From assembly GCF_032854445.1 (NCBI RefSeq), contig NC_088301.1, forward strand, positions 868,001 to 932,000: DNA of 64,000 nt, written 5' to 3'. Below the pieces are notes generated by a model that saw only the letters and a program-made list of their open reading frames with translations, did not search any database and had not been told where the DNA came from. Within the stretch, counting starts at the first letter, position 1, and each line of letters starts with the position of its first letter. Source of the stretch: Liolophura sinensis. Taxonomy: Eukaryota; Mollusca; Polyplacophora; Chitonida; Chitonidae. The position numbers and the translations under genes are program-made. Below are positions 5,327-36,840 of this stretch, piece after piece.

Positions 5327-5546
5327 GAGTGAGTGAGTGAGTGCTTGGGGTTTAACAATTTTTCAGTCATATGACGACGAAGGAATCCTTAGGGTGTATG
5401 TAATGTGCCTCCTTACCGCAGGACGGATTTTCACCCCTCTTTTATCTAGTGCTGCTTCACTGAGACGACTTACCGAAGGCAAGTAAGCCGCACCGCCCGA
5501 GCCATTATACTGATACAGGTCAACCAGTCGGTGCACCAGAAAGTTA
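5327..5546 (-). mobile_element. SINE copy, 5'-truncated
   Basis: Minus-strand relative of the complete SINE at 12807-13167. Read on the plus strand it begins with a (GAGT)n tail, then CTTGGGGTTTAAC, the CATATGACGACGAAGGAATCC block and the body complementary to GGCTCGGGCGG, ending near the GACTGGTTGACC equivalent. The tRNA-like head is missing. The tail is shortened by loss of the AACGTCGT segment. Confidence 0.85.
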
Positions 5547-5839
5547 CACAGTTGAGAATGCAAATAAACAAGTATGAGTGAATATAATGTCTGAATGTTT
5601 AAAGACCATCTTTAAGTATGAAAAATGTAAATGTATAATCAATCAGTCCTGCACACATATCTGTCATGGTGGATATAGAGGCTGCGGATATTAACCAGGG
5701 ATCCAAGTTATATCCACATCCAGTGTGTATATCTACAATGAAAACATTTCATTATTAAACACATGTGGAGGTTAACATGAGAGTACTATGTGTACTTGCT
5801 CTTATTTAGCATATAACTTGGCTCAAATACGCAGTGGGT
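5547..5839. other. Intergenic, no gene seen
   Basis: No recognisable feature between two interspersed repeats. Confidence 0.45.
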
Positions 5840-6845: not shown

Positions 6846-8627
6846 CAAATATATTAATGAATAGAATAATTTTTATCTCTGCCATCCTTGTGCATGTACC
6901 TGTACTACATTTACCATTAATTGCCGCATATATGTTAATTATACTGAAGTACTCAACTGTACACCAGAAGCGAATGAATAAATTTGTTACACAAAAATGC
7001 AGTGTGACCAGTTGTTATGATAGTGACCAAGGGACATCAGCAATACTGACTTCACAAATTAGACACCCAGATTATTTGTGTATTTATTGATTTGATTGTC
7101 CAGGTGTTTGATGCTGTGAAGACTGTTTCTTTTAAATGTTTATGACGAAAGTCTTAAGATTTATAGATGGATGGATGGAGTGAAGAAACTGGGCTAAGCA
7201 TAAGTAGCATGTTGCCTTATCTCTGACGAAGACAAGTATTGATACAAGCTACAGTGGAGCTGAGTCGGAGGCGATAAAACATGTGACCTCACTGGACAAG
7301 GACCCACATATACCAGAGAGGTGATTCACAGATCAACGAAAATGTTTTCAAATCCAACAGTACATGGCTATTTGAAGTATACGACTATAAGCACATAATA
7401 TGCGTTAATACATGTAATGTAATGTTTTTTTTTTTTCCTGAATTCCACTGTAAAGCTGGTTACTACTTTGTCACTACTGCCCATTTTTTCAATTTTGCAT
7501 GTGACTGAAGCACCAATAACATAAATAAATTTAATGATATGGGTTGCATCATGGTAAATATTTCCATGTCAATTAAAATGCATATCATTGGAGTATTTAT
7601 AAGCCTATGAGTACATTTTGTATACTGGTAAACAACTTGGATTGGTATGAGAAGCTGGTAGTTATAAGGATCTTAATTCTCGGATCGTTTGAACTATATA
7701 CATGTGGGAACGTAGTACGGCCCTAAAAATTTGCTCCAAAAGCTCACCTACAGAGGCAACCAAAGGTCATAGAATAATATTATACCATTGCGTTGAAACA
7801 TATTTTTCTAGCCCCTCGAGAAGGACATCATCTTAATTACCTTTTAACAAACCTGTAAACAACTTTATAAGATCAACATAGTTTTCAGAATTAGGCCAAA
7901 AGCATGAATAACTTAATCATGGTCGAAATTTTAGCTCATTTACAGAATCGGTAATCATGGAGGTACATGCATGTTGGCCTAGAATAGTCCAGCTCCATCT
8001 GTTCATGATATGCATGTAAGCCCATACTGACACCTATAATAATAGCCATGTTGAGCTTAAATGTAACTTTACAAAGCAGCCACTGAATACCCTTTTACAT
8101 CTTCACTCTAACAATCCACAGGGTGAATATTGCTAGTCGCGTAACCTTAGAGAGAGCAAATTTCTGACTAGATGAGCACACATGTAACAATACGTAGGCA
8201 TCCGTCGAATGTTTTACTAGACGAGTTAAAAACACTAACTTCGGGATAACCTCCGAAATGACCAATATATATTGTTTAAGTTTTTATTTTTGAAGACACA
8301 GTGTATACTTGTTCTTGTGTATTAGTTATTTAATATTATTATTTGTCTCTCCTATCGCTCTTTTAAATCTTTGTGGGATGATGCTATAAGCTGTCTTCTT
8401 TTTCCGTGAGGATGAGCACATACGACTGTGTTCGGCTCGAAAAGACGTTGTGGGCATGCGCGTCATGTCAGTGCGTTTTATGTGATGTCAGATCCGGTGT
8501 ACAAATTTTCCCAAGATTACCGATAATCAGCCACGCTGAGTTTCCACATTTCAGATGAGCGAATGTCTTGTTTGAATACCAGGACGAAGTTGGGCCTTAG
8601 TCCGTGCGGAGTTATTCACAGGACGCA
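6846..8627. other. ALG2 upstream region
   Basis: No exon recognised. The last ~230 bp are more GC/CpG-rich and contain GCATGCGC near 8455 (NRF1-like half site) and TGATGTCA near 8481 (CRE/ATF-like), compatible with a housekeeping promoter for ALG2. No TATA box is evident. The assignment of these motifs is inference. Confidence 0.4.
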
Positions 8628-9123
8628 ATGGTTAAAGTGGTCTTTCTTCACCCAGATTTGGGAATCGGAGGCGCTGAACGAGCGGTCATCGACGCGGCAC
8701 TCGCCTTGAAAAGTCGGCAACACAGGGTTGAGTTTGTGACATGTCATCATGATCCCAACCACTGTTTTCAGGAAACAAAAGACGGTAGTTTAAAAGTGAC
8801 AGTAGTCGGGGACTGGCTACCCCGCAGTGTGTTCGGCCGCTGCATGGCTCTGTGCGCTTACATTCGCATGATTGTGGCCGCTTGCTACCTCGTCATGTTC
8901 AGCAGCATTCAGTACGACGTAATATTCTGCGATCAGATATCCGCCTGTATACCAGCCCTCACATTCAGTGGCAAGAAGGTGCTGTTTTACTGTCACTTTC
9001 CGGACATGCTGCTTACCAAACGACAAACATTCCTGAAGAGACTGTACCGAGGACCTATTGATTGGCTTGAAGAGAAGACTACTGGAATGGCAGACTGTGT
9101 GCTAGTCAACAGTAAATTTACAG
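8628..9123 (+). CDS. ALG2: ALG2 coding exon 1
   Basis: Residues 1-165 plus one base. Ends in VLVNSKFT before the donor GTGCTT at 9124, and the split codon is completed by CC of exon 2. Translation continuing past 9123 loses similarity at once, which fixes the donor. Confidence 0.95.
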
Positions 9124-10953
9124 GTGCTTACTCATTTTATGTAGAACCTATGCAGTGTGACGCATTAAACACAATGTCAATATGTGCAACACTCGCTAAC
9201 GCTACGAAAATGAAGCTAATGAACTATGGGGGTGGCAGACACTGTATAACAGTGGTCGTAACGTGCTTAATTACATGCTGACATTGGGTCGAAGTAGTGA
9301 TTCAGTAGACATTATATCAAGTGTAACTTTGATATGTAGCCTAAAAGTGTTGAAATATAAAAAATAAGTGGCGTCGGGGTGTGCACTTGTCGTCTTGAGT
9401 CAAGCAGACCTGTGCATTAGATGTGACAAATGAAAAGTTTATTGGATCTTATTCAATCAAATTTTGTGGTCAATTTGTGTTTAAACCCATGTATTTATCT
9501 CAAAATTTGTGTTTATATGATCATTTAAATGATGCTGTACAACTGCTTTATGTTTAAGTTCACCTGAATTTCTTCATTGTTCTTAAGAATTCCCTGTTAT
9601 TTCCGATGTTTCAGCCACTGTCTTCAAGTCATCCTTTAAGTCCCTGTCTCATATCCAGCCTAAGGTGGTCTACCCAATTCCTGATTTTTCCGCCTTCCAA
9701 AAGCCAATAGATCCCCCAGGAGATCTCCTCCCTAAACAGGCAAGAGTGATTTTCCTGTCCATCAACCGATACGAGAGAAAGAAAAACTTAGGGCTGGCCA
9801 TCCAGGCACTAGGTAAGTCTGAAAAGCTAGTCTGGCATCAGCCAGATTAAATTTTGGAGATTTGTTAAAATTATTGTATTCCTGATGTTTGCTAATTCAT
9901 GAGATGTCCCATAGTTTGTTTATTGTAATAGTACAAATAAAATCAATGTGTAACGACAGCTTGGTAGTGGATAGTTCAAATAAAGTGACTTAAAAAAAAT
10001 CTTCAAAAACACACTAACATCAAGTACAGGTATCCACATCCAGATGTTATAGAAAGTGTAGTATTAGTCACCAGGAAACAAATTTATCCTGCAAATACCC
10101 AACAGTTCTGTGCAGAAAACCGATGTATAGGTGAATGACTTCAGTGATGTGACCATCGTTGGACCCCATCAGTGAGAGATAACCTACTCAGCAGACACAT
10201 TTGATGTCTGCAGGATTTGAGAATATATCTGTACCCCACATCACTGTTGTTGTCCATTGCAAAATCGGAGTATTTTGTCTGATGTGGGATAAAGTGCTTG
10301 TCATGGGGGATATAGACCATGATGGTCTTTTCGTTGGCTTAAAACCCCAAGATAATTGGAAGTACATGTGCATGCCCACCCAGTCAAGGTGTGTCAGAGG
10401 ATCCATTGTAACATTTTTAATGCTATTATTTTTGTCAGCTAAACTTGAGGAAAAGCTAGGAAGTCTGGACAAAATCCACCTAGTAATGGCAGGAGGTTAT
10501 GATGACCGAGTTGTGGAGAATGTGGAGCATTACACAGAACTGAGGAAACTGACCACAGATCTGAAGCTGGACGACCACGTGACGTTCCTAAGATCGTTTA
10601 GTGATACGGAGAAGCGAACTTTGCTGCATAACAGCTCCTGTCTCCTCTACACCCCAGACAAAGAGCACTTTGGGATTGTTCCTGTAGAGGCTATGTTCAT
10701 GAAGTGTCCTGTGATAGCAGTGGCCAGTGGTGGGCCTCTGGAAACAGTAGCTGATGGTCAGACAGGCTACCTCTGTGAACAAAGCCCAGAGAGTTTTGCT
10801 GAAGCCATGGTGAAAATTACAACAGATGAAAAGCTCAAAGCCAAATTAGGGCAGGCAGGACATGACAGAGTCATAAAGATGTTTTCTTTTGATGCTTTCA
10901 CCAAACAGCTGGACAGTATAATTAATGATCTTGTACCCAGTGTTAAGAGTTAA
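8628..10953 (+). CDS. ALG2: ALG2 alpha-1,3/1,6-mannosyltransferase, three exons
   Basis: GT4-family glycosyltransferase acting on the cytosolic face of the ER. It adds the second and third mannose to the dolichol-linked N-glycan precursor (established for ALG2). Coding exons join(8628-9123, 9615-9812, 10439-10953) give 1209 nt, 402 aa, close to the usual ~415. Seen in the protein: [13 protein letters not shown] at residues 6-18 (donor-binding Gly-rich loop), a hydrophobic stretch at 72-91 fitting membrane association, [39 protein letters not shown], and the GT4 EX7E motif with Glu307 and Glu315 (EHFGIVPVE). All three exons keep frame through GT-AG introns in phase 1. The ATG at 8628 is the only in-frame one before the conserved start. 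The gene converges with WDR70. Confidence 0.97.
9615..9812 (+). CDS. ALG2: ALG2 coding exon 2
   Basis: Acceptor TTTCAG at 9609-9614; donor GTAAGT at 9813. Encodes the linker [11 protein letters not shown] and the start of the C-terminal Rossmann domain ([19 protein letters not shown]). Both ends are phase 1. Confidence 0.95.
10439..10953 (+). CDS. ALG2: ALG2 coding exon 3 (terminal)
   Basis: Acceptor TTTGTCAG ends at 10438. The open frame extends further upstream into the intron to 10201, but that part lacks similarity. Encodes the C-terminal catalytic domain with [12 protein letters not shown] and a [15 protein letters not shown] loop. Stop TAA at 10951-10953. Confidence 0.95.
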
Positions 10954-11843: not shown

Positions 11844-11940
11844 TCACTGAGTGAGCTTTGCTTTTTTCCACAAAGGTTCTGTGTCTGTTTCTTCTTCCTC
11901 CTCCTCCTCCTCTTCCTGGAAAATCGCTTTTGGCTGAGTT
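11844..11940 (-). CDS. WDR70: WDR70 coding exon 16 (terminal)
   Basis: Acceptor TTGTTACAG. Encodes TQPKAIFQ, a nine-Glu run, then TDTEPLWKKAKLTQ and TGA (11846-11844). The TQPK...WKK end is the expected WDR70 C-terminus. The Glu run is a GAG/GAA stretch of low complexity. Confidence 0.92.
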
Positions 11941-14900
11941 CTGTAACAAGCCAAGGGAGACCACTCTGCGTCAGGCTAAGCTTGTTCGCTCATATGAATT
12001 ACTTCCCTTCTTTAAAGCGTTATGGTTTCATTTTAGATTAGGCATACCCCCCAACTAATTTCAAATCGATAAAATTTCCTAATAAATTTTATGAAATGAG
12101 GGCAATATATCCTTGATCCAAGCACTTCCAACATGAAAGAATGTATGTGAAAAAATTTACTCGTGAAATATTAGCCCTCGAGATGTTAATATGGGTCTGC
12201 ATTACACGCAATACATTTTAACACACAAGTGCAGTCACCCCTCAAAAATTACGCAGATCTATCTCTTACCAACATTATTACTATTATTTTAGAACAGTCA
12301 AAATAAATCACCATTCACAAAATATCGACCTCTGTGCACATGTTGCCTTTCAAATTCACTGATATTTACTGTTTTTATCCTGGTAAGTACAGAAAATTTG
12401 ACTTGATTAGCAAATATTTTTTTTAAGATTTTTTTGTCAAAAATAGATAACCTCTTAAAGCATATAGAAATGATAATTTAGCAAATTGGCCAAACCTTGC
12501 GTAGGCAGGAGCTATCCAGTAGGGGTTCTCGGAGGCCTCCTTGGCATGCCGCAGAATGGCATTCCTGGGGTCCTTATCGGCAGCATCTGGCTTCCTCAGC
12601 ACCAATTGCTGGACAACGTACTGTGACAAAGTGGCTCCCTTAGCTCCCACTCGGCCTCCCTCCCCTGGGGGAAACATACAAAATACCATTCACAACTACT
12701 CCCATAACATGAACAGCACAGGTAGAATAGCCTGAAGGACTATCTGAAAACCAACATAATTTCCATGTACCATACAAAAAGGTTGTATACTGATTTCATA
12801 CATGCCACCGGCCCGGATAGCACAGTTGGTAGAGCGTCCGCTTCGGGACCGGTAGATCCAGGATCAATCCTTGGTCGAGTCACACCTAAGACTTTAAAAG
12901 AGGAAGTTGTAACTTCCTCGCTTGGCGTTCAGCATGAAGGGGATAGTGCAACGACTGGATGACCCGTATCAGTATAATGGCTCGGGCGGGGCGGCTTACT
13001 TGCCTTCGGTAAGTCGTCTCAGTGATGCAGCACTAAATAAAAGAGCGGTGGAAATCCGTCCTGCAACAAGGAGGCACATTACACGTGCATGCACCCTAAT
13101 GATTCCTTCGTCGTCATATGACTGAAAAATTGTTGAGAACGACGTTAAACCCCAAGCACTCACTCACTCATACATGCCCTTATGCAGCATTTCATATTTT
13201 ATAAGCAACATACATGCATACTATGTTTTTTTTTCAGACAAGAGTCCTTGAGAATGAGTGTTAACAACCCAAACACGTGCTGATGTGCATGTTCAAGTCA
13301 GATAATTAATTCTGAACAGACCTGGACCGGTGACTGGCAATTCTGGTCTTCGACTCTTGACTGGATCTTTCCGTAACTTCTCCTCTGTCTTCCTTGTACT
13401 GGTAGGCCGGCCTTCTCGGTACATTGGCAAGGCATAAGCTGTGAATAGAAATAAGGAATTTTCTTAAGAAAACATTATACTTGTTGATATTCAGAATGAA
13501 ATACACAGTTACTACTCACTGGTCAAACCTGTGAACTCCATACTTTCTGTCAATCTCAACACAAACTAAATGTAACTTTGCCAAGACAGCAGCAAGTGCT
13601 GATCTACATACATGTAGTTCATTTTTATACTGGAAGGTCAGCATCGCCATGACATGGCTGAAATATTCTGCCAAACCAAAGAGCCTGGAAGTCTTACTTT
13701 CACAATACAAGATCTCTAACAGCTCAAATAATAATCAGGTCAAAGTCAGAACAAAACGGCCATGATTTTACCAAAAATGGACAAAATGGGCCAAAACTCA
13801 AACTTGGTGAACTCATTTGACAAGTTCCGACTCAGTTCAGGATGATAAAACGTTATGAAAAAAAAATCTGGAAAACTGTTTCGTGGTTCACAAATGCATA
13901 GACAGATGAGAGGTAAACCATACCAGCATTAATAAGATGCCAGATGAAATTTGTTAAGTTTTATCACAGGAAAAACATCGACCATAGCACCAGTAAAGTA
14001 TGCCTGCATACAGCTAGAAACTACAAAATTAAAAAAAAGAAAGAAAAAATTCCCTACATGAGTCAGAAACTGGAGATTTGGGCTTTATAAATACATGTAC
14101 TGTATCAGTCTGAATGGCTTGAGTAGTTGTCAGTGCAGCACTCACGTGTTATGATGTGTTTGTCTGCCATGACCTCCACATGCTTGGTCTTCCTCTTTGT
14201 CTTCACCACACACAGCATGGCACCTCTGCACATGGACAATCACAGGTAGATTTAAATAATACTAGGGCACCAGTAACCTATAATAGTACTGAACTAATAG
14301 GAGAGAACCAGTACAACCTCCTCTACCGAGAGCATGTATGTATACTGTATCTAGTACACTGTGCGTCCACATGGTCTTGTACACCTTCAATCAGACAGCA
14401 AATTGTCTTAGCATGTGTTGTGAATAGTGCACCACCATTATCAGAGGCTAAAAGAGACTACAAAAGAACATCCTTCCAACATGAATATGAGTATATGTCC
14501 CACTTTCCCACTCCCACAGCCCACCATATAAACCCTGTAGGAAAATGTCCACCACAGACTCCTCCCAGGATCATACCATATGGTAGTGCTTCACTCTCAC
14601 AGCCCACCACATAAACCATACAGGACAATGCTCACCTCTGACTGTTCTTAGGATCATAGTACAGCTTCATCTTCCCACTCCCACAGCCCACCACATAAAC
14701 CATACAGGACAATGCTCACCTCTGACTGTTCTTAGGATCATAGTACAGCTTCATCTTCCCACTCCCACAGCCCACCACATAAACCATACAGGACAATGCT
14801 CACCTCTGACTCTTCTTAGGATCATAGTACAACTTCACCTTCCCACTCCCACAGCCCACCACATAAACCATACAGGACAATGCTCACCTCTGACTGTTCT

Positions 14901-17900
14901 TAGGATCATAGTACAGTTTCATCTTCCCACTCCCACAGCCCATCACATAAACAGCACAGGACAATGCTCACCTCTGACTGTTCTTAGGATCATAGTACAG
15001 CTTCATCTTCCCACTCCCACAGCCCATCACATAAACAGCACAGGACAATGCTCACCTCTGACTGTTCTTACAATCATAGTACAACTTCACCTTCCCATTC
15101 CCACAGCCCACCACACAAACCCTATAGGGCAATGCTCACCTCTGACTCTTCTTAGGATCATAGTACAGTTTCACCTTCCCATTCCCACAGCCCACCACAC
15201 AAACCCTATAGGGCAATGCTCACCTCTGACTCTTCTTAGGATCATAGTACAGCTTCACCTTCCCATTCCCACAGCCCACCACACAAACCCTATAGGGCAA
15301 TGCTCACCTCTGACTCTTCTTAGGATCATAGTACAACTTCACCTTCCCACTCCCACAGCCCATCACATAAACAGCACAGGACAATGCTCACCTCTGACTG
15401 TTCTTAGGATCATAGTACAGTTTCATCTTCCCATTCCCACAGCCCACCACACAAACCCTATAGGGCAATGCTCACCTCTGACTCTTCTTAGGATCATAGT
15501 ACAGCTTCACCTTCCCACTCCCACAGCCCACCACATAAACTCTACAGGACAATGCTCACCTCTGACTCTTCTTAGGATCATAGTACAACTTCACCTTCCC
15601 ATTCCCACAGCCCACCACAATCTGGTTCAGTTTGGGGTGCCAGACACAGCGCACAACACTCTGCAAATTATCAACAGCGCATATAATTTATAAGTACAGT
15701 GTAGTGGCTGGGACATAACTATGACATCATATTTCAGCACTTTATTAGTTTTATTCTATGTTTTTCAACCTACTTGTATATTTCGTAACACTTATTGGCA
15801 GAATGTACATGTACAAAACATTAGTATGTAGTTAGCCAAAGATGACAGCCATAACAACCTGGGAACAGTTGTGGGTTTCCCCAGGACTCTGCCCGGTTTC
15901 CTCCCACCACAATGCTGGCCATTGTCGTGTGGGTTTCCCCCGGGCTCTTCCCAGTTTCCTCCCATCATAATGCTGGTCGCTGTCCTGTGGGTTTCCCCCG
16001 GGCTCTGCCCAGTTTCCTCCCACCATAATGCTGGCCACTGTCATATAACTGAAATATTCTTGAAAACTGCGTAAAACACCAATCAAATAAATAAACAGAC
16101 AAACATTACTGTAACATTTACCAGGGTATAATCAAGTACATGTATTACATGTAATAAGTGATAATCTTTATAGTAAGATTAATGAAAAGAACTGTAAAAC
16201 CAGGCCTTGCAATCATCATTCACCTATAAACAACTTAATTAACTCCACTAACTCTCTAGGTCACCTTCATATAAACAAAATATCCCTGAGTACGGCCTAT
16301 CCACACCAATCAAATAAATAAATAAATAGACTCACTGAAGTGGTGACATCCATAGAATGAGCAATATCTAGAGTCTCTCTATCCAGAAACACAAGTTTTC
16401 CTGCTGCTTCGTTCTTCTTCACAGATAAGCCAGTAACAACCAGCCTGTCATCAGGGCTGAACAAACAGTCTGTCCTGTAATCAAGGCAGATACAATATGA
16501 ACACCAGGTCCACACCCATGTACTATCAGTAAAACTACATGTAGTATGTACGAACACCAGGTACACACCCGTGTGTTATCAGTACAACTACATGTAGTAT
16601 GTATGAACACCCGGTGCACACCCGTGTGTTATCAGTACAACTACATGTAGTATGTATGAACACCCGGTGCACACCCGTGTGTTATCAGTACAACTACATG
16701 TAGTATGTATGAACACCAGGTGCACACCCGTGTGTTATCAGTACAACTACATGTAGTATGTATGAACACCCGGTGCACACCCGTGTGTTATCAGTACAAC
16801 TACATGTAGTATGTATGAACACCAGGTGCACACCCGTGTGTTATCAGTAAAACTACATGTAGTATGTATGAACACCAGGTGCACACCCGTGTGTTATCAG
16901 TACAACTACATGTAGTATGTATGAACACCCGGTGCACACCCGTGTGTTATCAGTACAACTACATGTAGTATGTATGAACACCAGGTGCACACCCGTGTGT
17001 TATCAGTACAACTACATGTAGTATGTATGAACACCCGGTGCACACCCGTGTGTTATCAGTACAACTACATGTAGTATGTATGAACACCCGGTGCACACCC
17101 GTGTGTTATCAGTACAACTACATGTAGTATGTATGAACACCCGGTGCACACCCGTGTGTTATCAGTACAACTACATGTAGTATGTATGAACACCAGGTGC
17201 ACACCCGTGTGTTATCAGTACAACTACATGTAGTATGTATGAACACCCGGTGCACACCCGTGTGTTATCAGTACAACTACATGTAGTATGTATGAACACC
17301 AGGTGCACAACCGTGTGTTATCAGTACAACTACATGTAGTATGTACGAACACCAGGTACACACCCGTGTGTTATCAGTACAACTACATGTAGTATGTATG
17401 AACACCAGGTGCACACCCGTGTGTTATCAGTACAACTACATGTAGTATGTATGAACACCAGGTGCACAACCGTGTGTTATCAGTACAACTACATGTAGTA
17501 TGTATGAACACCAGGTACACACCCGTGTGTTATCAGTACAACTACATGTAGTATGTATGAACACCAGGTGCACACCCGTGTGTTATCAGTACAACTACAT
17601 GTAGTATGTATGAACACCAGGTGCACAACCGTGTGTTATCAGTACAACTACATGTAGTATGTATGAACACCAGGTACACACCCGTGTGTTATCAGTACAA
17701 CTACATGTAGTATGTATGAACACCAGGTACACACCCGTGTGTTATCAGTACAACTACATGTAGTATGTATGAACACCTGGTGCACACCCCTGTGTTATCA
17801 GTACAACTACATGTAGTATGTATGAACACCAGGTGCACACCCGTGTGTTATCAGTACAACTACATGTAGTATGTATGAACACCAGGTGCACAACCGTGTG

Positions 17901-20900
17901 TTATCAGTACAACTACATGTAGTATGTATGAACACCAGGTACACACCCGTGTGTTATCAGTACAACTACATGTAGTATGTATGAACACCAGGTGCACACC
18001 CGTGTGTTATCAGTACAACTACATGTAGTATGTATGAACACCAGGTCCACACCCGTGTGTTATCAGTACAACTACAGGTAGTATGTATGAACACCAGGTC
18101 CACACCCGTGTGTTATCAGTACAACTACATGTAGTATGTATGAACACCCGGTGCACACCCGTGTGTTATCAGTACAACTACATGTAGTATGTATGAACAC
18201 CTGGTGCACACCCGTGTGTTATCAGTACAACTACATGTAGTATGTATGAACACCCGGTACACACCCGTGTGTTATCAGTACAACTACATGTAGTATGTAC
18301 GAACACCAGGTCCACACCCGTGTGTTATCAGTACAACTACATGTAGTATGTATGAACACCAGGTCCACACCCGTGCGTTATCAGTACAACTACATGTAGT
18401 ATGTATGAACACCCGGTACACACCCGTGCGTTATCAGTACAACTACATGTAGTATGTATGAACACCAGGTACACACCCGTGCATTATCAGTACAACTACA
18501 TGTAGTATGTATGAACACCAGGTGCACACCCGTGCATTATCAGTACAACTACATGTAGTATGTATGAACACCAGGTACACACCCGTGTATTATCAGTACA
18601 ACTACATGTAGTATGTATGAACACCCGGCACACATCCACGTGTTATCAGTACAACTACATGTAGTATGAGGTGGTATGTACATGTAATGTAGCTGTAAAT
18701 TTTGTTAACTCCTGATAATGCATGCTCACAGATTGTGCTCTCAAAAAAAATCAGTAATCATAGACAATAACTTGAGAAGCAATATTAAGCATATTATACT
18801 ATATCTCCCATTTAGTCACAAACAGATACAGCTTCAGTTGTAAAAGCTTTTTTCTACATTGAACAACAAGGCTAACCATGCGTTCAAATTTATGACTGAC
18901 TCTTAGAGAACACCAATGAAATAAATCTACATTAGAATATAGAACTGTGCACAATTTTAAGTTGATCACAAAGCTCATTTACAAACACTGCCAGCTTTTC
19001 TCAAATAAACGAAATGCCAGAAGTACTGGCTGAAAACTTACATGGGGAAATAATTACACAAATTTTGTTTCACTCGGAGTGGCTGCTTAAAATTTCTGAT
19101 GTCCCATAATTTCAGGGTGTCATCACCTAAAAAGCAGACAAAGGCAACATCTGAACAAATGAAAAATTAAATCTGTAAATTTAGAGCACAGAATGTAATG
19201 TAGGTAATTTTATATATTTATAGAATTGCCAATTGTGCCTCAGACATGTCCACACCCATGTCAGGTGATAGACAGTGAGAGGGTACTTTTACATGCATTA
19301 GTACTACACCAATAATCATGGTTAGGTACTGAAAGTTTACAATCACCTCAAAATTAAAGAATCACAAGGGACCCTCCACATAAATAGTTTGCTTCAGGTT
19401 CGGTTAAAACAAATTAAATGAATGAACACTCAAACAATGGGTGTCAAGTTCATTCGATTTTTTTCCTTGCAACAGGATACGACCCAGCTGTGTTTATCTT
19501 TCCTACATCACACTTTCACAACGCAGTAAATTATATACCAAATTAAGTAACACATCACTTTTTATTTTAGCTTTCTCACCTTTTAGTTACTTTGTTAAAA
19601 AAATGTAATGTATCCAATCAGTCGATTGTTAATAATAACAACTCTCCCTTAAACATGAATAAAGCTTGCAAAAAAAAGAAAATGCCCTTGAGGGTAAAAC
19701 AATTGTGCCTGACTACAAAACAGGCTTCCCTGTAGTGGTCACGTGTCTACTTTGGCTGAAGAATGACATGAAACAACTCATTCTCAAGAATGGGGAGGTT
19801 GGGGAGTCTCATGGGGAGGGCATGAATTGGCCGAAAATTATTTAACTTTTTTAATTATTTAACTTATCAAATGGCACACACAGACCACATACATTTCATA
19901 TGACACCTGCAACCTGGGACAGGTGAGGTTCTGAAAGGTATCCCTCAATCGCTGAGACAACGTGATGTCTGTCCTTACAATGTCTGCAGTAAATTTAGCG
20001 CAGAATTGCCAATATGTAACACAGATGCGTATGAACTAATTATTTTAAAATTATGCTCGAAGATATGAATAATGTAGTTATGTATAACAAATTCCAGCGA
20101 ATACTTCACCTACGCTCCCACCCCTTGGAAGCCTCACTCAATTACTTCAGACTTGGATTGAACTGAAGATACTTTTCACAAGGATGAGAGTGACACAAAC
20201 TATACAATGTGTATGGATTACAAAATCTGCTAAATATTTCAGAAATTATTAGCAGATAACAAATACACAACAAAGAGCATGATTAAAATATTATTAATAA
20301 GACTTAAGACATAAGCTGGAAGTTGACAGCTAGTATGTACATGTATCCTGCAGAAATTTGTAAGTAGCTTTTGGTAATCATCTCTACTGGTACACTGGTA
20401 CGCCTACCTCTAAATATTTGGTTTCACCAAGACTTGGTGTGAGTACATGCTGACACCTGTTTAGAATCTTACATATGACAATGAAAACTTTTAATCAGCG
20501 GGAAGCAGAGCTCATCAGCAGGAGTCATCAACACCTGCACGACAGCCTTGGCCACATCCAAAGTCGCAAAGATGTATAAAATATTTTACATTAAATGCCT
20601 TAAATATTCTTGATTAGATCTTAAGCTAAGATTTGCCCAAATCTGGACAAAAGCCCATTGCACCATATAGCAGTCAGCACTCGACATCGGCTTTTACAAA
20701 ACCTCCAGTGCTACTGCAGGATGTAGCATAACTGGACAGTGGACACAAAAGTAGGCCTGTTTTAGATATAGGCAGGACTACATACTGTACGTCCGACCAC
20801 ATAATTAGGTCTATATACTTAACACCGTCAAAATATGTAAGTGCGAAACTTGTGCCTTGTGGGAAAAGGTTTCACAAGTGGAGCCACTGTTGCTGTTCAG

Positions 20901-23900
20901 ATTTGTTATATAAAGTAGACTGGCACTGATAGCCACTTTACCAATTGCCGGTTTACACAACGATGTTTAAATGTGGCCGACCGATGTGGGGAATCCTTTG
21001 ATTCCTTTAAATCGTTTAAACCGAATGGAAGGGCGTAGCTTGGATTTGTTTTTTTGGGAGAGAAAACATAAACGAATGCAAATGATTTATGGGGAAGGTC
21101 CCTAACATAACTCATTCCACATCGTTTCTAAGATGTGATAAGAACAGATAATTTATTCCCAATGCCTCTGACACTATTCACTGAGATATGAACACCATTT
21201 TCCTACAGGTCAAACTATGCTTATGCCCTAACAATTTACTAAAACTTCAGAATCTCCACAGCACAAATGTTGTCATCATGCTTACCTCCCCTTGAGGCTA
21301 AGACTTTTCCATCATAAGAGAATTTCAATGATGACGTGTCACTGCCGTTCATGTGAGCATTTCTATTCTTCAAAGCCACATTTACCTAGAGAAAGAGAAA
21401 CAGAAACAGAAAATATTACAACCCTGTACAAACACAGAAGGTTCTGGTCATTACAGCAACAACATGGATATTATCATCCTTTTCCAGACATTCCAAAGCT
21501 CACAGAAATTGTTGCGCTTAAAAATGAGATCTTGCTGGCCAAGTATAATCAATGGTGTCACACAATAGAATACAGTCTCCACTGGAAGATGACTGACCCA
21601 TAAATTTGACAGCTGCCAATTTTGGTAAAAGTACAATGTACAGCACCAATCAAGCAAGTGGTGCCAGTTAATGGAGATGTGAGAACACCCAGAGACAAGT
21701 CCTCATGGAATTAAAAAATATTCCTTCTCCCCATTACTATGGTAAATAAAACAATTCTTGTTTTCTTGTCCTAGTGACGATGTTGTGACTTAAATTAAAT
21801 GCCATTAAAGACTTGTAAAATGTTTAAGGTATAACATGTATGTTTTAGCCCTAAACTCACAAAAAACCTGCTATGTTCCCAGATCTGTATGGATCCATCC
21901 TGGCACGCTGCAGCCACATATCGCCCATCGTTACTGTACGTGCACGTTGTGGGAATTGTCTTCCTGCCCTGCTGGGACTTTGTCTTGATTATATTCTTAT
22001 GTTTACGCTCCTGATTCACATCCCATAACCTCACTGTTCTTCAAGACAGAACACGGAAACAGAACACACTTACATGTAAGCTTTACTCTGAAAAAGTGAG
22101 GCGATCGTAAGTGAGGGGATCGTAAGTGAGGTGATCGTAAGTGAGGTGATCATAAGTGAGAGGATCGTAAGTGAGGGGATCGTTCTAAACAGAAGTCTTC
22201 AAACTACATTTGAATCTGTATAATTTTTGCAACTTCTCTGAACAATACCTGGCATGATAAACATCCTGCGTTAGGGAATAGAAAAATTAAATTGTACAAG
22301 TTTACTTCAACTTGTATAAATGTTTATGGGACTGAATCGCACATCATTTGAAAAGTCACGTAAAGCACAGCGTTAACCTGAAAGACACTCACACAGAGTT
22401 AACCTTAAGGACACTCACACAGAGTTAACCTTAAGGACACTCACACAGCGTTAACCTGAAAGACACTCACATAGGGTTAACCTGAAAGACACCCACACAG
22501 CGTTAACCTTAAGGACACTCACACAGCGTTAACCTGAAAGACATTCACACAGAGTTTGCCTGAAAGTACATTTCTCTCCCATTTTATAAGATTTTTCACA
22601 AAACTTCACTTTCACTACAGAACAGTCATATTTTAAATGACTCTTCAATAGTGACAACAAGCAATTCTCATTCAGAGATTCAGTACTGTTATCAACTTAT
22701 ATTTCTCACCCATCATTTGCACATGTGAGAAATTCCTCCTTGATTTTCGGATTCCAGCAGCCGGAGTTCAACATGGCTGTGTGGCCCTGAAAACAAAACA
22801 GCAGTCCTGTGTAAAAACTACTCGCTATATTACATAGAGTTGAGAATTACAGGTGTTTCTATATATAGCACAATCTCCATCTGAGAAATACACTTGAGTC
22901 AGTGAGAGCCCCCTCACCTTGGTACTGGCCATATCCACCAGGTACTGGTCTCCTTTCACACACTCCATCTTCTCAAAGCCGTCTCGGTCTATGACCTTAG
23001 CCTGTGAGTTGCCAGCCACAACAAGAATGACCTCTCCAGTAGGGCTGTACTCAAGGGTTTTGATCTGGTGACTGAATTACACAAGACGTATCAGACACAA
23101 GACGTATCAGGTACAAGCCATATCACACACAAGACGTATCAGGTACAAGACATATCACACACAAGATGTATCAGACACAAGACATATCAAACACAAGATG
23201 TATCACACACAAGACATATCACACACAAGACGTATCAGGTACAAGACGAATCACACACAAGACGTATCACACACAAGATGTATCAGACACAAGACATATC
23301 ACACACAAGATGTATCAGACACAAGACATATCAAACACAAGATGTATCACACACATGACGTATCACACACAAGACATATCACACACAAGACATATCAGAC
23401 ACAAGACATATCACACACAAGATGTATCACACAGAAGACGTATCACACACAAGACGTATCAGACACAAGATGTATCACACACAAGATGTATCACACACAA
23501 GACGTATCAGGTACAAGACGAATCACACACAAGACGTATCACACACAAGACGTATCACACACAAGATGTATCAGACACAAGACATATCACACACAAGATG
23601 TATCAGACACAAGACGTATCAGATACAAGACGTATCACACACAAGACATATCACACACAAGACGTATCACACACAAGACATATCAGGTACAAGACGAATC
23701 ACACACAAGACGTATCACACACAAGACATATCACACACAAGACATATCACACACAAGATGTATCAGACACAAGACATCACACACAAGATGTATCAGACAC
23801 AAGACGTATCAGACACAAGACATATCACACACAAGGCATATCACACACAAGACGTATCACACACAAGATGTATCACACACAAGACGTATCAGACACAAGA

Positions 23901-26900
23901 TGTAACAGACACAAGACGTATCAGGTACAAGACGTATCACACACATGACGTATCAGACACAAGACGTATCAGACACAAGACGTATCACGTACAAGACGTA
24001 TCAGGTACAAGACGTATCAGACACAAGACGTATCAGACACAAGATGTATCAGGTACAAGATATATCAGACACAAGATGTATCAGACACAAGACATATCAA
24101 ACACAAGATGTATCACACACAAGACGTGTCACACATAAGTGATATCAAATGCAACAAAGGAATCTTTCAATACACAATAAAGTGGAAGCTCTAAAAATTT
24201 GGCTTTTTGTAAACATTTACTACTGTGTCGGTTACTTAAAAAACACTACAAATGTTTCCATGAAAATCACAAAATACAAGCAATCCTACGTACGTGTACG
24301 CAAAGATATCAAACAGACAAAAAACTACGACCTGGTTTAGGCATTTAATGTAACAGTAGTTATGGTTGACCACCTACCATTCACAAGGACGCAGCTGTCT
24401 GAAGGACTTAAAAGAGCTATCCATGCCAGCAAAGTCCCAAAATTTGACATTGTAGTCAAACCCTCCTGTGACAAGACGAGCTCCAGACGGGTCCAGGGCA
24501 AGAGCAGATACCTAAAAAGATAACAATAGTGTTTAGGTCTAGCTGGGAGAAACATCCATTGTCTTTCATAAATGGGCAGTTATCTCCCCTGAAGTACTGT
24601 CAAAATGTAATACTGGAACTGAAAGTACACCACATTCATCAGATGCCATGTGGAGAGCAGGGTCTCACCCTAAAACGTAACTGAAACATTTACGATCTAA
24701 GCTTCTTCTCTTCTTTATAGGGCATCAAAAGAGTTTTTAATGGCATAAGGAAAAAAGTCTAAACACTTGAACATCATAATTTAGACAACTGATCTATCAT
24801 CTATGTCCTTTACTTTATTTTGAAACTATCATGGCCGATTTATTGGGGATGTCGGAGCTATTGCAATTTTGTCCTTGTTTTCCATTTATTTCATTGATTC
24901 ATTCTGTACTCAATACTATTTCAGAACATCTGACCACTTACTGTTTTGTCCCCATGATCCAGCTCTGTCTCGTGACTTTCTGGAATACGACTTGTTAGGC
25001 CCTGGACAGACAAGGAAAATAACAAGTAACTACATTCTGTAGTACACTGCTACAAACCATCTTCCTGTCAGCAACATTAATACTTACTTTAGGCTTCGTA
25101 ATCACCTTTGCTTTACTGTACATATCAAAGTCTTAGGAAACCTACTCTTTTGACAACCGATGACATTAAGGCATGCATACTTCCACCAGGGCATTTTCAA
25201 CCAATCATTGATCGTCCCTTTCAAGTGTGTATTTCCTTGGTTCAAAGGACGTGCGCATTTGGATCCAATTTATTCCTTGAGGCAACATTATACAGTAATA
25301 AGCAGAGCTATGAACAGTGATCGATGGGCTTTCACTGAAACGAACAGGCAGCAGAAAATCAAAGCCGATCAATGTAGACTATGTTGTTGTCATTTTGCCA
25401 TTAATTTCTACCAAGCCTACTTGGCCTCAAAATGACCGTCCCCCTACAACCCTTAACACGTCGATGTGCAGGGACATATTATGCGCAAGCACATTAACAC
25501 CTAGCTGTGAAAAAAATTTATTTCATACACCGCATACTTCTCACGACAGCTACATCCCATGTTGTTTTGAACTTCTGTCAGTGTCAATAACAAAGGTTAT
25601 TAGACCATGAATCATGCGTACTTCTAAAGGAAAGTTCAGAGTTTTGAAGAGTTAATATAGCTCAGTAAATGTCAGACATCGCTCGCTTGATTACATGAAG
25701 ATGCTATAAACGAACCTGAGAGGAACCATAAAACAAGAATTCATAACCTTTTTTTTTTCTCATTAAACACAGTGGCCTTCAATTACAGCTGGCCTGCCTT
25801 ACATTAAGTCAGCAGCAAATGCCATAAGAAGCTAGGATATTTAACAAAGAAGACCAATGGTGTTGAAATGGTTCCTAAGTCAATTCCATGACTGTCATTA
25901 AATGGCTGGAAGTTTGCCATCTTAAGAGTTTTTGTCTTACCTCCTCCTCCTCCTCTTCACTATCCCCATCTTCATCCTCATCCTCACCCCTCTCTCTCTG
26001 TATGGACACTGCCCCTGACTGCCCTCTGCCTCCCTCCACACTCTTTCCATGGGACCTCTTCAGAGTGTGACCGCTCGAGTCAGGGGCCTTAAAGCCTGGG
26101 GGTAGTGGAGGACCCACCATGTCATCTTCAGGTGCCTCTGTCCGGCCAGTGGCTTTCTGTGCAGGTTTGGTACCTGGTGGAAGGGGAGGACCAATCATTT
26201 CATCCTCAGAGACACTGGAGTCTGAACCAGAGTCACTCTCAGAGTCAGATCCGCTACTGCTCGATGAGCTGGGCCCTTTGCCAGTTTTTACTGTGTCTTC
26301 TTTGTCTTCATCTGAAAAATGTGTTTGATTGATGTTTAACGCCATTATATACCCAAAACTTTTCACTTACAAGACAGTAATCAGGTTTTTGGTCAGAACA
26401 ACCCAGAGTGCGCAGAATAAACCATTATCATTTCCTAAGCACCTGTCACACTGCCTTAGACTTGCACGCAAAACTACGGCAACAGTAGTGAGAGATTTGT
26501 GACCTCAATGATCTTGGGCCTATTAGCTGAGAAAAACAGAACCGAAAGTATCCAATGAGCCAGCAAGAAATTAATGTCTTTAGGAAAAGTATAAATCTTT
26601 ATAAAACTATTTCATACAATCACAGAATGAAAAATAAACCAAGGAATGCTAACCCACTGCTTTTCATTTCATGTAGTCAAAGCCCTTTACAAAAGTGTAT
26701 TATTAAAATTATGTTTAGAAACCTTCCATAAGAATGAGCATATATGCACTATGAGTGCTGGGGTTTAATGTTATACTTTGCAACTTTTCAGTAATATGAC
26801 AACGAAGGAGTCTTTAGAGTAGGACTCTGCTGAAGGTGATGGGTTATCACTGCAAAGTGACAAATAAAACTATTCAAGTAGATCAGTCCTATAATCTATA

Positions 26901-35376: not shown

Positions 35377-35665
35377 TGAGTGAATGAGTGAGTGAGTGAG
35401 TGAGTGAGTGAGTGAGTGAGTGAGTGAGTGAGTGTGTTCTTGGGGTTTAACGTCGTCATATTTTTCAGTCATATGACAACGAAGGAATCCTTAGGGTGTA
35501 TGTAATGTGCCTCATTGTTGCAGGACAGATTTCCACCGCTCTTTTATTTAGTGCTGCTTTACTGAGACGACTTAACGAAGGCAAGTAAGCCGCCCCGCCC
35601 GAGCCATTATACTGATACGGGTCAACCAGTCGTTGCACTATTCCCTTAATACTGAATGCCAACTT
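35377..35665 (-). mobile_element. Headless SINE copy within the 28-bp array (1)
   Basis: Same family as 12807-13167 but without the tRNA-like head; it ends at the equivalent of the CTTGGCGTTCAG region. Flanked by the 10-bp duplication TATGGATGAG (35367-35376, 35666-35675). The tail carries a long (GAGT)n run. Confidence 0.88.
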
Positions 35666-36514
35666 TATGGATGAGAGTGTCAAGGAGAGACTGAACGAAC
35701 TAGAGTGTCAAGGAGCGACTTTATGAACGAGAGTGTCAAGGAGAGACTGAACGAACTAGAGTGTCAAGTAGCGACTGTATGAACTAGAGTGTCAAGGGGC
35801 GACTGAATGAACTAGAGTGTCAAGGAGCGTCTGTATGAACCAGAGTGCCAGGGGCGACTGAATGAACTATAGTGTCAAGGAGCGATTGTATGAACTAGAG
35901 TGTCAGGGGGCGACTGAATGAACTATAGTGTCAAGGGGCGACTGAATGAACTAGAGTGTCAGAGGGCGACTGAATGAACTAGAGTGTAAAGGAGCGACTG
36001 AATGAACTAGAGTGTCAAGGAGCGACTGAATGAACTAGAGTGTCAAGGAGCGACTGAACGAACTACAGTGTCAAGGAGCGTCTGTATGAACTAGAGTGCC
36101 AGGGGGCGACTGAATGAACTAGAGTGTCAAGGAGCGACTGTGTGAACTAGAGTGTCAGGGGGCGACTGAATGAAGTAGAGTGTCAGGGGGCGACTGAATG
36201 AAGCAGAGTGTAAAGGAGCGACTGAATAAAGTAGGGTGTCAAGGAGCGACTGAATGAATTAGAGTGTCAAGGAGCGACTGAACGAACTAGAGTGTCAAGG
36301 AGCGTCTGTATAAACTAGAGTACCAGGGGGCGACTGAAGGAATTAGAGTGTCAAGTAGCGACTGTATGAACTAGAGTGTCAAGGGGCGACTGAATGAACT
36401 AGAGTGTCAAGGAGCGACTGAATGAAGTAGAGTGTCAGGGGGCGACTGAATGATCTAGAGTGTCAAGGAGCGACTGAATGAAGTAGAGTGTTAAGGAGCG
36501 ACTCTATGGATGAG

Positions 36515-36760
36515 TGAGTGAGTGAGTGTGTTCTTGGGGTTTAACGTCGTCATATTTTTCAGTCATATGACGACGAAGGAATCCTTACGGCGTATGTAAC
36601 GTACCTCCTTGTCGCAGGGCGAATTTCCACCGCTCTTTTTATTTAGTGCTGCTTCACTGAGACGACTTACCGAAGGCAAGTAAGTCGGCCCGCCCGAGCC
36701 ATTATACTGATACGGGTCAACCAGTCGTTGCACTATTCCCTTAATACTGAATGCCAACTT
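36515..36760 (-). mobile_element. Headless SINE copy within the 28-bp array (2)
   Basis: Same 5' end point and the same TATGGATGAG flanks (36505-36514, 36761-36770) as the copy 1095 bp to the left, with a shorter (GAGT)n tail. This is best explained by duplication of one insertion. Confidence 0.88.
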
Positions 36761-36840
36761 TATGGATGAGAGTGTCAAGGAGAGACTGAACGAACTAGAG
36801 TGTCAAGGAGAGACTTTATGAACGAGAGTGTCAAGGACTG

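Follow-up and report, generated by a model that had tools for sequence, protein, structure and literature searches.

Background

Minisatellite-like tandem duplications of exon-intron borders have been described under the name of mirages in the cephalochordate amphioxus, namely in the globin genes BflGb6 and BflGb9 and earlier in Adh3 (PMC3087553), with further instances in TnC and PGBD5 in a later report (PMC3902484); in this lineage they have been suggested to give rise to new introns. According to the globin report, BflGb6 has 6 units in one haplotype and 3 in the other, BflGb9 repeats the donor-side border, RT-PCR suggests that these mirages leave splicing undisturbed, and the edge copies escape homogenisation (PMC3087553). 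Other reports describe human paralogues in which internal tandem repeats occupy exon-intron borders and transcripts attest to altered introns (PMC2812944), and the potato RdRp gene, in which a border duplication created an intron (PMC4974935).

The array described here lies in the WDR70 gene of the mollusc Liolophura sinensis, within a window (the whole stretch of DNA that was analysed) of 64,000 nucleotides. Eight hits of the hemocyanin beta-sandwich family, located within 11.4 kb of each other in the genome, likewise point to a mollusc. As in the amphioxus mirages, a border has been copied in tandem within an ordinary gene, the copies carry many splice signals and the edge copies are less homogenised; as in BflGb9, it is the donor-side border that is copied. 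The WDR70 array is distinguished from the amphioxus versions by its occurrence in a mollusc, by its 84-bp unit (against 10-72 bp in Adh3 and about 150-160 bp in the globins), and by the presence of twelve in-register units with the donor intact in all of them. Furthermore, it is known from the sequence of one haplotype, whereas the amphioxus mirages come with RT-PCR and haplotype length differences. With the human paralogue repeats it shares the location of a minisatellite at a border, but those repeats reside in segmental duplications and have a mean unit of 30 bp repeated 4 times, whereas WDR70 is here a single-copy gene. Like the potato RdRp case and the AGGT model of intron gain, it involves a duplication that crosses the border and carries AG/GT (the slash marking the splice border), but in contrast to the latter model, the WDR70 gene model leaves the old intron with the first donor. 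Competing-donor minigenes (PMC9225289) likewise present identical 5' splice sites to one acceptor; they were hand-built with two sites, whereas WDR70 is natural with twelve. The locus amounts to a natural-gene version of the duplicated-donor experiment, in which sequence and U1 pairing are equal and position alone differs.

A search of the largely non-subscription literature recovered no mollusc case of a border-copying repeat, an abalone paper describing an intronic minisatellite only. The WDR70 array belongs to an already named kind, to which it adds a member apparently outside lancelets. A clean mollusc case suggests that the process follows minisatellite-rich genomes and not a single lineage.

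The WDR70 gene and the anatomy of the array

The modelled exons (Table 1) were located with the human WDR70 sequence as guide, with splice borders set by hand; they are numbered as in the original prediction, and the exons upstream of exon 5 lie outside the full model. The joined protein, which contains no array sequence, matches the PDB chain 6zym_p ("WD repeat-containing protein 70", human) over residues 1-474 of 476 with an E-value of 3.2e-210; human WDR70 is a chain of solved spliceosome structures. This establishes the predicted identity of the gene, and the alignment with human WDR70 crosses the exon 12-13 junction. Exon 12 is flanked by introns of 675 and 1334 nt and joins exons 11 and 13 in frame; as anticipated, splicing from the donor at 15559 to 14225 keeps the frame, and reading past exon 12 into the intron gives AGG TGA at once, so that only the authentic donor yields WDR70. 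Use of any of the other 11 donors adds an immediate TGA, and because 84 nt correspond to 28 codons, the later units repeat the frame with TGA inside each donor.

Table 1. Coordinates in the window of the WDR70 features discussed in the text
Feature	Position	Strand	Remarks
WDR70 exons 5-16 as modelled	11846..24511	minus	12 exons, one frame, 476 aa, then TGA
WDR70 exon 12	15560..15660	minus	101 nt; last 60 nt are the first repeat copy
WDR70 intron 12	14226..15559	minus	1334 nt, mostly array; gene model
WDR70 exon 13	14146..14225	minus	80 nt; intron 12 acceptor
Repeat unit 0	15536..15619	minus	first array copy, assigned from register and sequence; its donor is the authentic one, with 15559 as the first base of the intron; 60 nt of exon 12 (15560-15619) plus 24 nt of intron 12 (15536-15559)
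Units 1-11	14612..15535	minus	intronic copies in exact 84-bp register; one decoy donor each (first intron bases 15475, 15391 ... 14635)
Decayed outer copies	14501..14611	minus	substitutions and small indels; donor lost (GTGGAC for GTGAGC at about 14547-14552 in the copy next to the core)

TRF reports the array at 14501-15619, with a period of 84, 13.3 copies, 91% matches and 0% indels. Its core (14612-15619) starts inside exon 12 and is made up of 12 units, each precisely 84 bp long. The tandem unit spans the exon-intron border of a real gene and splice signals are carried by 12/12 copies: CTCACC on the plus strand, which reads GGTGAG on the minus strand, recurs at 14631 + 84n up to 15555 in every core unit. 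All of them share the identical donor CAGAG/GTGAGCATTG and an invariant run of 18 nt, AGTCAGAGGTGAGCATTG; 11 of the 12 are distinct in sequence (mean pairwise identity 92.4%, with 14 of the 84 columns variable). The original prediction was right about the strand, about this spacing and about a seed lying across the exon-intron border, but its division of the unit into 59 and 25 nt has to be corrected to 60 exonic and 24 intronic nt. Its further statements, that GTGAGC is kept in each complete unit and that the units are set apart by substitutions alone, are correct within the 12 in-register units and break down in the next copy outward, with its altered donor and small indels. On the whole, the core is homogenised and the distal edge decayed; the unit at the exon-side edge is not diverged, its mean distance of 6.1 falling within the range of 5.2-8.5. 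Similarity between neighbouring units gave no signal of an expansion path.

A G-quadruplex scan recovered 12 two-tier motifs on the sense strand and no three-tier ones. On the opposite (plus) strand the array is open in one frame across 14587-15693, giving 368 aa from stop to stop with 28-residue repeats; this frame shows no sign of being a gene.

In the 609-Mb genome, in which the window occupies C7:868001-932000, 9 of 9 array matches in a DNA search, and 15 of 15 matches in a protein search with the C-terminal half of the gene, fall at the WDR70 locus; these searches recovered no second haplotype, paralogue or retrocopy. That only one haplotype is represented would be compatible with an assembly artefact, the real locus carrying one or few copies, but the differences among the units (11 of 12 distinct), their exact register and the location of the array in a 60-Mb contig render this extremely improbable.

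Strength and conservation of the decoy donors

Pairing with the 5' end of U1 is the same (-9.7) for every decoy and for the authentic donor, which ranks third strongest among the 11 modelled WDR70 donors; 1.1% of the 1407 GTs in the region pair as well as this. In predicted RNA structures the authentic donor has an unpaired probability of 0.004 and the decoys 0.0009-0.013, and no decoy is hidden. Structure as the rule choosing the first donor was hence rejected, since the authentic value falls within the decoy range.

Candidate acceptors were scored with a model built on 12 sites, which separates real sites from background poorly, 46% of background AGs reaching the lowest real score. Under this poorly discriminating model no sense AG in the core array scores above 1.5, the value of the best one, and a decayed copy holds one at 3.1; the real acceptors, left out singly, range from -2.7 to 10.8, four of the 12 not exceeding 1.5, and those of exons 12 and 13 score 1.5 and -0.2. 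As left-out real acceptors score as low as array AGs, the model cannot tell them apart. The TATAG and TGTAG sites, through which the original prediction envisaged weak exonisation of some units, are, on the same poorly separating scale, not among the top-scoring sense AGs. A recursive splice site was also considered and rejected: the stretch before the donors, usually of the form CCTAAGAA[G/C]AGTCAGAG, is purine-rich and not a pyrimidine-rich acceptor.

Conservation of the donors as a sign of function was likewise rejected, because chance gives as much: the 18-nt invariant run around the donor is equalled or exceeded in 41% of random placements (P 0.41), and the invariant 9-mer at the donor has a chance probability of 0.18. 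Changes are nonsynonymous at 6 of the 8 variable exonic columns, against 80% expected without constraint; with only 12 units, related and not independent, these selection tests have low power. Five residues vary among the copies, and at four of them (V2, N6, P15 and K17) exon 12 has the human WDR70 residue, the fifth being V9, where human WDR70 has A. This suggests, within the reach of such weak tests, that exon 12 evolves as protein-coding sequence while the copies look free of constraint.

Tandem arrays and exon borders in the genome

Tandem arrays account for 23.9% of the window and, within the WDR70 span as modelled, for 38%, compared with 12.8% of 20 partly overlapping AAA loci and 4.8% of 40 kb taken as ten spaced samples. 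A single one of the 23 WDR70 exon edges lies inside an array, against 8.1 expected from random placement (P(<=1) 0.0011, in a test on one gene and six arrays, using TRF rows whose period is at least 10, merged by hand), which suggests that borders are normally kept clear.

Self-BLAST detected a copied border at exon 12 only among the 12 WDR70 exons, and at none of 50 sampled loci, these comprising all 20 AAA matches and 30 of the 138 Pkinase matches. The sampled loci are domain matches, whose ends do not in every case coincide with those of an exon; they include single-exon genes, and some of them overlap. Within this sample the predicted unusualness of the array is upheld, but its kind already has a name in the literature.

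Donor-bearing arrays as such appear to be common and not special, given that a genome-wide search for three AGGTAAGT in tandem returned 626 matches, where the pattern in reverse gave 468, overlapping matches being counted. Twenty clusters of this tandem motif were recognised by eye among the matches listed, extending to 93.4 Mb of contig C1. Pairs of GTGAGC 26-30 bp apart number 1226, against 343 for the backward control, a difference that is not read as enrichment because the control holds CpG.

Several other juxtapositions of arrays and exons were encountered. Within WDR70, an array of 66 16-bp copies (23079-24139) stops 8 nt short of the first exon 6 base (23071), so that the stretch before the exon 6 acceptor is largely minisatellite, and an array of 41 53-bp copies with 96% matches (16496-18668) stops 22 nt short of the exon 11 start. 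One of the sampled loci (L039) has an array at about 1660-2224, with units of about 71-82 bp, that sets in some 6 nt downstream of an AAA-protease-like exon, within the intron; its units hold AG/GTGCTG, and the array is flush with the donor without exon sequence. At two further loci (L032 and L034; G000:C1:39401644-39402075), an AAA exon occurs twice, 261 nt apart, with near-identical protein and diverged DNA, possibly representing mutually exclusive exons; the self-BLAST border test missed this diverged duplicate. Units of two arrays on contig C1 (G000:C1:26353474-26354027 and G000:C1:22730490-22730938) contain a pyrimidine-rich AG right before GTAAGT, e.g. TCTATTCCAG/GTAAGT, a shape like that of recursive splice sites.

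Origin of the array and its possible effects on splicing

We favour, with a probability of roughly 0.8, the interpretation of the WDR70 array as a mirage, that is, a minisatellite derived from a tandem duplication with ends in exon 12 and intron 12, which is tolerated by the gene. Under this scenario, a duplication with one end in the exon and the other in the intron would have seeded the array, which would then have expanded and been homogenised via exchange among units. The spliceosome tends to pair the closest sites across the unit that it recognises first, and where the flanking introns are long this unit is the exon. Exon 12 would be recognised in this manner, its acceptor pairing with the closest downstream donor, which is the authentic one, and the decoy copies would be removed along with intron 12. 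All decoys are on the intron side, downstream, so that exon 12 would stay at 101 nt at any copy number. We infer that this exon-wise recognition of exon 12 keeps the WDR70 mRNA normal despite the decoys; a transcript now and then spliced from a decoy would gain 84n nt starting with TGA and be cleared as a nonsense transcript. The array would thereby be passenger DNA, its eleven full-strength donors being incidental, and its copy number may differ between individuals.

In the minigene study, human constructs carrying one donor in duplicate, with flanking introns of 365 nt, used the upstream donor exclusively, while the footnotes of a genome-wide table give an upstream preference of 29-44% within size classes, indicating that the proximity rule is not absolute (PMC9225289). 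This cross-exon rule and the lancelet mirages lend outside support to the option of a tolerated expansion that had been offered at the outset. Certain considerations weigh against tolerance. The exon-definition rule as applied here comes from human genes; should introns be the units of recognition in this animal, the prediction is reversed, and the decoy located 410 nt from the acceptor should win. The decoys equal the authentic donor in U1 pairing, and none is concealed by predicted structure. The rarity of exon edges in arrays relative to chance suggests that border arrays usually cost something.

The same equality of eleven decoys with the authentic donor in U1 pairing, together with the TGA that follows at once from each of them, would suit a regulatory switch, another option of the original prediction, in which the decoys divert part of the pre-mRNA to nonsense transcripts or a retained intron and thus set the level of WDR70. 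Other splicing factors are reported to autoregulate through unproductive splicing. Knock-down of WDR70 increases the unspliced form of HIV-1 RNA, with a slight drop in the fully spliced one (PMC7845644). The failure to detect selection on the donors, the loss of the donor in the outer copy and the reported silence of lancelet mirages nevertheless make such a switch unlikely. Since WDR70 acts in splicing, the switch could be extended to a feedback loop, and a row of decoys in a splicing-related gene invites this reading, although nothing favours it over coincidence. A splice-fidelity counter, in which the share of decoy transcripts would read the state of the splicing machinery and feed back on the WDR70 level, with copy number as a heritable dial, is in our estimate very unlikely.

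The presence of twelve strong U1 sites inside 1 kb also raises the notion of a landing strip for U1, which is known to protect introns; the sites might assist in the definition of exon 12 or shield the intron from premature polyadenylation. The conservation tests do not make maintenance of the donors evident and the authentic donor is already among the strongest of the gene, leaving this notion with next to no weight. Alternatively, the copies might be the raw material of a new exon or intron whose birth is under way. Such a model has been proposed for the lancelet globins (PMC3087553), the potato gene gained an intron through border duplication (PMC4974935), and the human paralogues have tandem repeats at borders (PMC2812944); but the TGA in the donor of every copy, in the exon frame, and the failure of the weak 12-site model to find a clear acceptor in the array render an ongoing birth highly improbable here.

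Other features of the window

Four copies of a frame with the motif YQYNGSGG..YLPS(V/L)SRLS are present in the window (5363-5611, 12913-13125, 35465-35707 and 36563-36802), and this frame is probably a dispersed repeat. The plus strand at 8601-10953 contains a glycosyltransferase gene, which by resemblance we take to be ALG2-like.
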